64,000 nucleotides of DNA, taken from positions 353,365 through 417,364 of the forward strand of contig LBMP01000001.1 in the NCBI GenBank assembly GCA_001184205.1. The letters run 5' to 3'. This document shows positions 1,960 to 15,502 of this stretch, piece after piece (the first letter of the stretch is position 1; each line of letters begins with the position of its first letter). The notes beneath the pieces were generated by a model, which was not told the origin of the DNA, made no database searches, and saw only the letters and a list, made by a program, of their open reading frames with translations. Made by a program: the position numbers and the translations under genes. The DNA is from Desulfocarbo indianensis (lineage in GTDB: Bacteria; Desulfobacterota; Desulfarculia; Desulfarculales; Desulfarculaceae).

Positions 1960-10701
<8,742 letters not shown>

Positions 10702-10742
10702 GAATTTTACTCCCTTGCTGACAGCGGCCAGACTTTTATCGG

Positions 10743-10774
10743 CTGGCCACGGCCTTTTGCCGGCCGTTGGCCAG
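10743..10774. terminator. Strong hairpin downstream of the CRISPR array
   Basis: CTGGCCACGGCC at 10743-10754 pairs with GGCCGTTGGCCAG at 10762-10774 with one bulged base, about 40 bp after the last repeat. There is no T-run, so this is not a classical intrinsic terminator, but it could end or stabilise the long pre-crRNA. The rest of 10702-10899 shows no gene. Confidence 0.4.
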
Positions 10775-12299: not shown

Positions 12300-12724
12300 G
12301 ATTATGCCTCCTTTATTTAAGAATCGCGGCCGGTGGAGCCCCGTTTCTGGGGCCCGCTCCCTAAAAGCAGGCGGTCCGGCTGGGACAAGGCGAATGGTTT
12401 TCTGGAAAGCGGCCAGCGGGAAGCGACGGCTCGGAATTGAAGCCAAAGGGCGGCTTTTCAGCCGCGGAATGGGGAAACCGGATGCAGCGCCATGGGCGTG
12501 TCTGGGGCAACTTCTTGTACCTGCGTCTGGTTTTATTATTTTCCGGCCGGGGCAAGCGGGTCAAGGCGCGCCTGGGACAGTTGATCCGCCTGCCGCGGAG
12601 GGGGGAGGGGCTTGCTCCCTTGCGCCCTTGGCGGCCAACGTCAAGCAAACCGGATTTGGAAGGCCAAGCTAACTACCTGTAAAATCTTAACCTGTGGCCC
12701 ATTGTCTACCGCCCCACTTTAAGC
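12300..12724. other. Intergenic, no gene seen
   Basis: This GC-rich stretch lies between the GAF gene start and the promoter region of sat. It has several short open frames on both strands, but none with a ribosome-binding site or family-like sequence. I see no RNA gene that I recognise. Confidence 0.5.
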
Positions 12725-12753
12725 TTGACAATTTAGGTGATGTCTCATTAAGT
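12725..12753 (+). promoter_or_regulatory. Candidate sigma70-type promoter for sat
   Basis: A perfect TTGACA at 12725-12730 is followed after 17 bp by TTAAGT (12748-12753), a weak -10. If used, it gives a transcript with an untranslated leader of about 340 nt ahead of sat. The -35 is convincing, the -10 is not. Confidence 0.4.
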
Positions 12754-12756
12754 TAC

Positions 12757-13101
12757 CTTCTGTAGACCATAAACTGACACAGTGCCGGAAAGCGTCTCCG
12801 GGCCGGGCTGAGAAGCCCTCGGGGGCGAGGTATACGCCTACCGGCCGTTAGGTCTATGTGAAAGGCCCCAAGGGGTGGGCCAGGTCTGGCAATTGGGCGG
12901 CGCGCGAGGCTGCCGCCGGGGTGAGAAGCAAGGCCGACCTCCGATCCCGGGGCCCTAAAGTTTGACCGGCATTGTTACCTTTGGCACAAGTGCCGGTCCG
13001 TCCAAGAGGCCAAGACGTTTGTAAGTCATAGTAACCCCGTCTTTTTCATGGCGGGGCGCCCCAGAGGGGGCGGTTCAAAATCTAGTTAAGGAGGATTACA
13101 C
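12757..13101 (+). promoter_or_regulatory. Long hairpin-rich leader of sat (possible structured RNA)
   Basis: The leader contains several strong potential stems: GGCC (12801-12804) with GGCC (12843-12846) enclosing GGGCT-GAGA-AGCCC (12805-12818) and GGCG/CGCC (12824-12838), which together look like a three-way junction. Further stems are GGCGGC/GCCGCC (12896-12901 with 12912-12917) and GACCGGCA/TGCCGGTC (12964-12971 with 12991-12998). It ends with AAGGAGG before the sat ATG. I could not match it to a riboswitch or housekeeping RNA family. It may be a regulatory leader or an independent small RNA. Confidence 0.45.
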
Positions 13102-14316
13102 ATGGCATTGGTTCCCCCCCATGGTGGAGGCGATCTTAAGCCCCTGTTGCTGGAAGGCGCGGCCCTGGAAGCCGAGAAGAAAGCCGCCGCGGGTTACAAG
13201 AAGCTGAACGTGAGCACGATGGCGGCTTGCGACTGCTTCATGATGGGCATCGGCGCGTTCACCCCCCTGGACGGCTTCATGACCGAGGCCGACTGGAAGG
13301 GCGTATGCGCCGACATGAAATTGGCCAACGGCGTGTTCTGGCCCATGCCGGTCACCGTGAGCGCCGGCGATGAGGACGGCATCGAAGTGGGCGACAAGCT
13401 CGCTCTGTATAACGATGAGTTCGGCGGCCTGGTCGCCACCATGGAAGTCAAGGACAAGTACCAGATCGACAAAGAGTTCGAGTGCAAGAACGTCTACACC
13501 ACCACCGACACCGAGCACCCCGGCGTGGCCAAGGTCATGGAGCAGAAGAAGTGGAACCTGGGCGGTCCGGTGAAGGTTCTTTCCGAGGGCGGCTTCCCCG
13601 AGGAGTACGGCGACCTGTACGCCAAACCCGCCGAGACCCGCGCCCTGTTCGATAAGCTGGGCTGGTCCCGCGTGGCCGCTTTCCAGACCCGCAACCCCAT
13701 GCACCGCAGCCATGAGTTCCTGGCCAAGATCGCGGTGGAGGTCATGGACGGCGTGATCATCCACCAGATCCTGGGCAAACTGAAGGCCGGCGACATTCCC
13801 GCCGACGTGCGCGTGAAGGCCATCAACGCCCTCACCGACAACTACTTCGTGAAGGGCACCATCGTTTCCAAGGGCTACCCCATGGAAATGCGTTACGGCG
13901 GCCCCCGCGAGGCCCTGCTGCACGCCGTGTTCCGTCAGAACTACGGCTGCTCCCACTTGATCGTGGGCCGCGACCACGCCGGCGTGGGCGACTACTATGG
14001 CCCCTTCGACGCCCAGAAGATCTTCTACGAGATCCCCGAGGGCTCGCTGGTGCTGAATCCCCTGCCCATTGACTGGACCTTCTACTGCAAGAAGTGCGAA
14101 GGCATGGCTTCCATGAAGACCTGCCCCCACGGCAAGGAAGACCGCCTGCTCTTGTCCGGCACCATGGTGCGCAAGACCTTGTCCGAGGGCGGCGATCTGC
14201 CCCGCGAGTTCTCCCGCCCCGAAGTGGTCAAGATTCTCCAGGACTACTACCAGAACCTGGAGGAAAAGGTGGAGATCAAGCTGCACGGCGCCGCCACCGG
14301 CGACACCAAGAAGTAG
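13102..14316 (+). CDS. sat: Sulfate adenylyltransferase (ATP sulfurylase), dissimilatory type
   Basis: This 404-residue single-domain homo-oligomeric ATP sulfurylase activates sulfate to adenosine 5'-phosphosulfate with release of pyrophosphate, the first step of dissimilatory sulfate reduction (or the last step of sulfur oxidation). The nucleotide-binding motif [11 protein letters not shown] starts at about residue 195 and the second active-site motif VGRDHAG at about 288. A CKKC-x9-C Cys set at about 329-342 (with a following His) is typical of the zinc site in dissimilatory Sat. The start has a strong AAGGAGG site. No apr, dsr or qmo genes are in the window. Codon use is markedly biased to C/G endings, as expected for a highly expressed gene. 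Confidence 0.97.
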
Positions 14317-14348: not shown

Positions 14349-14378
14349 AGGGCGGCCCTTTGGGGCCGCCCTTTTTTT
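14349..14378 (+). terminator. Rho-independent terminator of sat
   Basis: A 10-bp perfect stem (AGGGCGGCCC / GGGCCGCCCT) with a 4-base loop is followed by seven T residues, about 30 bp after the sat stop. Confidence 0.95.
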
Positions 14379-14557: not shown

Positions 14558-15502
14558 TTAAGGAGTCGCGGCGCGGCCCGCTTCAGGGCTCAAATCCCCC
14601 CGCGAGCCTTCCCGCCACAGGGCGCATTGGCCGAAGCCCTCCGCGCCGAGATAATTGCGCATGGGGTCGCATTTGATCTGCAGGATGAAAAACACCGGCG
14701 CGGGCAGCCGCCGGGTGCACAGGGTTTCGAAGTTGGCCCCGCCCTTGGATATCACCAGGTCGGCTTGGCGCAGGAGGCTCTTGAACTGCGGAGACACCCC
14801 GGCCCAATCCACCCCCACCCCGCCGTAGCCCGTGTCCGCCACCTGGTCGAAGCGGTCTTCCAGGCCGGTGTTGCGCAGCTCCCGGCGGGTGAGGTCGTTG
14901 AGGGCCGGCGCGCCCTTGACCGCCAAAACCACCCTGCCCGCCCGCTGGCGCAGATAGTCATAGAGCGGCAAGTCGAAGAAGACCTCGCCGGTGTTGTCGG
15001 TGAGGTACAGCACCAGGCCGGGCTGGGCCCGCAGGGCCTCTTCCAGCCGGGCCACGTGGTCGATGCAGAGCTCCACCCGGCTTTTTGCGGCGGTTTCCGC
15101 CTGCTCCATGGCCTGGTCCGGCGAACGGAAAAAATCCAGGTTGTTGCCCAGGGCGGCCAAAAACACCAGGGAGCGCAAATCGCCCCCCACCAGCTCCCTG
15201 GCCCTGGCCGCCACCTGCCGCGCCGCGCCGCTTTCGCTTCGCTTGAATTCCCGGAAGGGGTCCTCCCGCCTGGTGAGGCTTTTCACCGCCCGCAGAATCC
15301 GGTTGGCCACCTGGGGCGAGGTCAGGTTGCGGCCGTCGCCTTCCTCCAGGACTTGCAGGGCCGCCGCCTCGGCCCGGGCGGTCAGCTCGGCGTCTCCCCC
15401 GGCGGCGAACCTGGCGGCCTGCCTGGCCAGACCCGCCAGGCATTGGCGGCACTGGGGGTAGGGGTCCAGGATCTGCTGCTGCTCGTACAATGATTCGGCC
15501 AT
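14558..15502 (-). CDS. DUF89 / ARMT1-like metal-dependent phosphatase
   Basis: This 314-residue protein is of the DUF89 family, whose characterised members are metal-dependent phosphatases thought to clear damaged or inhibitory phosphometabolites. Visible family features are the N-terminal Cys pair in PQCRQCLAGL, ALGNNLDFF near the middle, YLTDNTGEVFFDLPL (about residues 165-180) with the metal-binding Asp-Asn-x-Gly-Glu, and DLVISKGGANFETL (about 245-260). The protein belongs to the prokaryotic Cys-containing subgroup. Its substrate is unknown. It is a single gene on the strand opposite sat. Confidence 0.85.
   Translation of the reverse strand: MAESLYEQQQILDPYPQCRQCLAGLARQAARFAAGGDAELTARAEAAALQVLEEGDGRNLTSPQVANRILRAVKSLTRREDPFREFKRSESGAARQVAARARELVGGDLRSLVFLAALGNNLDFFRSPDQAMEQAETAAKSRVELCIDHVARLEEALRAQPGLVLYLTDNTGEVFFDLPLYDYLRQRAGRVVLAVKGAPALNDLTRRELRNTGLEDRFDQVADTGYGGVGVDWAGVSPQFKSLLRQADLVISKGGANFETLCTRRLPAPVFFILQIKCDPMRNYLGAEGFGQCALWREGSRGDLSPEAGRAATP

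Follow-up and report, generated by a model that had tools for sequence, protein, structure and literature searches.

The window analyzed here, a 64,000-nucleotide stretch of the Desulfocarbo indianensis genome, carries a sat gene whose product has a Pfam ATP-sulfurylase match (Table 1). The gene is apparently monocistronic, is followed by a terminator-like hairpin with a T run, and would be preceded by a leader of about 341 nt if transcription begins at the predicted upstream promoter P1. That length agrees with the outline drawn in a first-pass annotation (12757-13101), which had described a hairpin-rich leader ending in the ribosome-binding site of the ATP sulfurylase gene, and the AAGGAGG motif is indeed found at the leader's end. 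Because the leader is present as a single copy in its own 5.1-Mb genome (G000), an origin as a repeat or mobile insert was rejected. On the 3' side of sat, an ARMT1-like damage-control phosphatase gene lies on the opposite strand (14558-15502). The window also contains CRISPR-like long repeat arrays at 7993-10760, where repeated peptides are visible in several frames.

Table 1. Positions of the sat gene and of the predicted elements around it, numbered from the first letter of the window.
Feature	Position	Strand	Description
Promoter P1	12724-12754	+	CTTGACA (12724-12730), N18, TAAGTT (12749-12754); sigma-70-like; conserved
5' domain	12759-12861	+	Closing stem 12759-12768/12851-12861 around a multi-branch junction, predicted by folding
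Long imperfect hairpin	12864-12954	+	GGCCCC...GGGGCC; not beyond chance
Candidate second promoter P2	12962-12992	+	TTGACC (12962), N19, CAAGTG (12987-12992); weak -10
RNA hairpin	12964-12998	+	10 bp, operator in its loop; z -2.03
Operator-like palindrome	12972-12989	+	TTGTTACCTTTGGCACAA; Rex/HcpR type, TTGT-N10-ACAA, inside the leader
Hairpin A	13035-13056	+	CCCCGUC/GGCGGGG; stem 13035-13041/13050-13056, probability 1.0
Hairpin B, abutting A	13057-13072	+	CGCCCC/GGGGCG; stem 13057-13062/13067-13072, probability 0.98
Ribosome-binding site	13088-13094	+	AAGGAGG; position conserved in alignment A1
sat	13102-14316	+	ATP sulfurylase gene
Terminator-like hairpin and T run	14350-14378	+	3' of sat

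For comparison we used sat loci from relatives; sat was found in 21 genomes among 60 examined. Fourteen loci belong to the same family (L005, L006, L007 [= L030], L008, L009, L012, L018, L020, L021, L022, L023, L024, L026, and L027) and six to other families (L011, L013, L014, L016, L017, and L019). L025 was excluded because it lies at a contig edge and L028 and L029 because they are distant second copies, and L010 and L015, each the second of two tandem sat genes, were not counted as family leaders. Operator positions were compared in 19 of these 20 loci (without L007), 18 of which carry an operator, with promoter and operator positions entered by hand. A wider survey covered 75 further or overlapping sat loci, 36 with an operator at the cut-off (3 from the family, L034, and 32 further loci) and 39 without.

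A promoter-like sequence, CTTGACA-N17/18-TANNNT, precedes sat in all 14 family loci. The window, L020, L022, and L030 share its form ACTTTAAGCTTGACA letter for letter, and TTTAAGCTTGACA...TAAG occurs only once in the whole D. indianensis genome. Transcription from this predicted promoter, P1, would start at approximately 12760-12762. Counting against the P1 model, the window's -10 element matches only three of six consensus bases, and it is because of this weak -10 that P1 is absent from the list of a stricter promoter scan. In L009, where the operator has been lost, P1 is retained, an argument for its acting independently. In L030, the promoter lies about 620 bp upstream of sat, with an operator-like repeat array in between: five copies of a 44- to 45-bp tandem repeat (L030:2560-2880), each with an operator-like CACCGACTGGTACAAGG, an arrangement suggestive of an enlarged array of operators or hairpins.

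The best-supported regulatory signal is a candidate DNA operator that the first-pass annotation did not mention, namely, the palindrome within the leader. A degenerate form of the operator pattern finds four distinct sites in the D. indianensis genome, and the reversed pattern, used as a control, finds none. The four sites precede sat and three sets of other NAD(H)- or energy-linked genes: aprBA, a NAD kinase gene, and a pair of genes resembling CoA-disulfide reductase and LdhH. aprBA was identified by TIGR02060 above its cut-off; the NAD kinase, CoA-disulfide reductase, and LdhH names come from strong matches, each below the equivalog cut-off. The genome encodes a single Rex, recognized by PF06971 above cut-off and by the NCBIfam Rex equivalog, from a gene downstream of an apparent atpE (assigned by eye). 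Palindromes of the same form upstream of sat and apsAB in Desulfovibrio were first assigned to HcpR, a regulator of the CRP/FNR family, with the consensus TTGTGANNNNNNTCACAA (Rodionov et al. 2004; available text of PMC545781), and the same protein might own the operator described here. However, a later study reported that Rex represses sat in Desulfovibrio vulgaris (Christensen et al. 2015, as relayed in the available text of PMC7531388), and one of the four genomic sites precedes a NAD kinase gene. We infer that Rex is the probable binding protein and regard HcpR as an unlikely one. In one genus, g4, the first half of the operator reads AAGTG rather than TTGT in all seven loci; judged by its letters, this is a poor Rex half-site and counts against the Rex model.

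The position of the operator relative to the predicted transcription start differs between families. In the six other-family loci it starts at -9 or -10, whereas in all 12 operator-bearing family loci it starts between +94 and +211, with the window at +211; displacement of the operator into the leader is thus a family trait. The operator overlaps the promoter in the other families, whereas in the window it overlaps the weaker candidate promoter P2 and not P1. In the wider survey, 31 of the 32 further operator loci, mostly Desulfovibrio by title, hold the operator at -28, within a TTGAC(T/A)-N17-CA(A/G)NNT promoter. The operator itself is not universal, since none is recognizable at the cut-off in 39 of the 75 surveyed loci, most of them titled as Nitrospirae or Desulfobacterales.

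These comparisons raise the main rival to a P1 transcript, in which sat would be transcribed mainly from the operator-covered P2, as in Desulfovibrio. Transcription from P2 would start near 13000 and give a leader of about 100 nt containing only hairpins A and B, and P1 would be minor or drive something else. The Desulfovibrio-type arrangement provides the precedent: its promoter is TTGACT-N17-CAAGAT, with the spacer taken up by the operator, whose end is the CAA of the -10 element. Most family leaders have a TTGNCC-like block four bases 5' of the operator (read from the alignment); g4 leaders keep this block together with CAARGT at the operator end. Leaders outside the family, at about 86 to 145 nt, are also consistent with a short transcript. 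On the other hand, the window's P2 has a 19-bp spacer and a -10 element, CAAGTG, that lacks the final T; P1 is better conserved than P2, occurring at 14 of 14 loci; and L009 has P1 yet neither operator nor P2. We consider a mainly P2-driven sat rather unlikely, though less so than any of the other rivals to the P1 transcript.

The aprBA leaders of the family follow the same plan, with a distal promoter about 260 to 415 bp before the gene and, in most, a TTGTTC(C/T)-type operator inside the leader. Upstream of aprBA in L119 and L120 (both g4), a TTGACA-N18 promoter lies directly 5' of the operator, an arrangement that favors the short sat transcript, and a second promoter-like sequence likewise abuts the operator in L127. 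The possibility that the sat operator, too, has a second promoter next to it therefore deserves serious attention. Most family aprBA loci (L116, L118-L121, and L127) have another operator-like sequence, TTGTGAC-N6-ACA, just upstream of the distal -35 element. Nine family loci (L116 and L118-L125) also have AAGGAGGTG, or a sequence close to it, about 110 to 185 nt upstream of aprB and without a gene following it; a sequence of this type occurs upstream of aprB in L128, from another family, and is missing from L117 and L127. We take AAGGAGGTG to resemble the ribosome-binding STAB-SD mRNA stabilizers.

We next consider the leader as RNA. The stems described in the first-pass annotation form where it placed them, and the leader (12757-13101) has a minimum free energy of -150.6 kcal/mol (z -2.18), which 3 of 100 shuffled sequences equaled. 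Twelve of the 14 family leaders (without L007 and L012; 11 with separate domains), which are not mutually independent, have a mean z of -1.85, compared to -0.49 for the DNA directly upstream of P1. Thus, the leader folds moderately better than chance. The reverse complements of the 12 leaders fold nearly as well (mean z -1.82), as expected for inverted repeats. The three-way junction suggested for the 5' end forms when 12757-12862 is folded in isolation (z -2.29), where the stem 12761-12768/12851-12858 has a mean pairing probability of 0.94. When the full leader is folded, other pairings replace this closing stem, so the junction is possible and not established, and the 5' domain cannot be aligned between genera. 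Of the other segments, that at 13035-13072 is well supported (z -3.65), whereas the middle stem (12855-12965) has a z of -1.25, with 25 of 200 shuffles equally good, and does not exceed chance. The positional counterpart of the long middle hairpin in g4 is a short GGGCC hairpin, with one compensatory pair in L026 (by eye). Two further candidates were rejected. The RNA hairpin around the operator might have presented GGCACAA as a protein site, but the 12 leaders, as read in the alignment, do not conserve its outer stem. The full-length fold had hinted that the 5' end masks the ribosome-binding site; such pairing does not exceed shuffles in 11 of 12 leaders, and only L026 reaches 0.03.

The firmest RNA part of the leader is the pair of tandem hairpins, A and B. 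Their segment is not equaled by any of 200 shuffles. The last 95 nt of each leader were searched mechanically for perfect hairpins that abut one another. Such a pair is present at -61 to -77 in 11 of the 14 family leaders and in none of the six other-family leaders. For no leader among these 11 were more than 3 of 150 shuffles equally good, with 0 of 150 for the window's pair. L006 has no tandem hairpins, those of L009 and L027 are imperfect when judged by eye, and the same search returned unrelated hairpin pairs in L010 and L015. Because MAFFT did not bring both hairpins into register across 13 sequences (A2, A3, and A5), a model was built from five sequences only (A6). Run against 22 sources at an E value of ≤1, it returned 13 matches, none of them the window's own copy; with 150 candidates scored per genome, at least 5 of 21 genomes were matched, all at sat. 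Paired cells make up 99.1% of the tandem hairpins, compared to 46 to 66% for slid partners. Covariation was the check proposed for relatives' sat upstream regions, and here the pairing is nearly complete but compensatory evidence is slight, with one both-side change in 10 distinct rows of an alignment that was fitted to the model and excludes the window. Formal covariation is thin because the loops vary freely and the stems hardly change. Together with the promoter and operator, the tandem hairpins recur in other genera, in keeping with the conservation that the first-pass annotation had asked for.

Its proposal of a new regulatory RNA draws support from this recurrence but is unproven: BLASTN of the leader against 60 relatives found no true homologue besides its own copy, only one both-side change is seen, and the model missed the window's copy. 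Short BLASTN matches in L003 and L004 fall in or beside unrelated genes and were taken as chance. As that annotation had judged, no known riboswitch class is recognizable. An Rfam release 15 scan of the window gave no match at gathering score, and matches at E values of ≤10 were weak and chance-like; a known riboswitch is thus without support. We considered a new class of RNA nevertheless, a ligand- or protein-binding aptamer whose fold would control sat after initiation. The leader is long and structured beyond chance, a hairpin in g4 shows paired changes between L020 and L022 (by eye), and the leader is retained in front of two types of sat with only about 49% identity. Two genomes, G014 (L010/L026) and G017 (L015/L027), carry two divergent sat types in tandem, about 49% and 75 to 81% identical to the window's sat, and it is the 49%-identical type that adjoins the leader. 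In genus g4, the sat that follows the leader shares only about 49% identity with that of the window. A leader plan that persists in front of differing coding genes would point to selection on the leader. Against an RNA class stand the lack of an Rfam match, the sparse covariation, the unalignable 5' domain, the chance-level pairing between the 5' end and the ribosome-binding site in 11 of 12 leaders, and a scan of 12450-13150 that returned no terminator-like site. Positive evidence for a ligand-sensing RNA is little, and we judge such a class improbable.

The same scan led us to reject an attenuator or terminator within the leader. It also bears on whether P1 might yield a small RNA ending before the operator, or drive a leader attenuator, with sat transcribed from P2 or by read-through. 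Some support comes from g4, where CAAGTTTTTG comes after the GGGCC hairpin and immediately precedes the operator, and from L024, which has TGTTTTT after a G+C-rich hairpin. However, the window has only AAAGTTTG at this place, and the g4 stem and T run are 3 to 4 bases apart. We therefore think it very doubtful that P1 serves a small RNA or attenuator.

Taking together the promoter-like and operator-like sites, the tandem hairpins, their conservation, and the rex gene, all of which are read from sequence, we tentatively favor a P1 transcript controlled by a promoter-distal Rex roadblock, a reading that may well hold but that we stop short of calling probable. The nearly equal folding of the reverse complements, the scarcity of compensatory changes, the promoter-like block at the operator, and the many surveyed loci that lack an operator also count against it. 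P1 would give a monocistronic sat mRNA with a 5' leader of about 341 nt, and the transcribed leader would contain a Rex-type DNA operator about 210 bp from the transcription start. At low NADH/NAD+, Rex would occupy the operator and block RNA polymerase advancing from P1; at high NADH, Rex would depart and sat would be expressed. The leader folds 3' of the operator, above all hairpins A and B, would most likely stabilize the mRNA and prevent the variable upstream part of the leader from base-pairing with the ribosome-binding site. More speculatively, sat could be under a two-layer switch, in which a redox repressor acts in the sat and aprBA leaders and a family-specific leader RNA senses a second signal such as APS, pyrophosphate, or the act of translation; the 5' domain and tandem hairpins would then form an undescribed RNA regulator that outlived replacement of the sat gene. 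We see this elaboration as a long shot.

Several known systems offer points of comparison. Rex control of sat in D. vulgaris involves the same target gene and the same kind of palindrome, and Rex is encoded here too, but there the operator overlaps the promoter (available text of PMC545781) and here it would lie about 210 bp downstream of the start. Documented repressor roadblocks, by LacI, PurR, GalR, CcpA, and CodY, likewise have the operator downstream of the promoter in the transcribed region, with P1 being a predicted promoter in our case; Rex is not among the roadblocking repressors named in the available text of PMC4132739. Rfam cis-regulatory RNAs share a multi-stem fold before a metabolic gene and differ in that none in release 15 matches. 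The ompA leader is a 5' untranslated region with mRNA-stabilizing hairpins. Leaders of this type resemble the sat leader in having stable hairpins near the ribosome-binding site of a gene for which high expression is expected, and differ from it in that the sat leader has two abutting stems with variable loops, for which a stabilizing role would follow by analogy. A literature search, with most subscription papers outside its reach, found no paper on a sat leader RNA in Desulfarculaceae, and the available text of a noncoding-RNA prediction for Oleidesulfovibrio (PMC11124144) names no sat leader. The control circuit is known; neither the operator's placement inside the leader nor the tandem hairpins have, as far as this search shows, been described.

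ATP sulfurylase commits the cell to an ATP outlay on sulfate, so the redox setting of sat bears on the rate of sulfate reduction and on isotope effects. With the operator lying within long folded sat and aprBA leaders in one family and at the promoter elsewhere, these loci would offer a natural experiment in the passage from repression of initiation to repression of elongation, and the analysis gives precise boundaries for the 5' untranslated element. A long leader is also seen at a dsrA locus: upstream of dsrA in L138, a perfect TTGACA-N17-TATAAT lies about 295 bp before the start of the match, and the final hairpin of the leader adjoins the ribosome-binding site.
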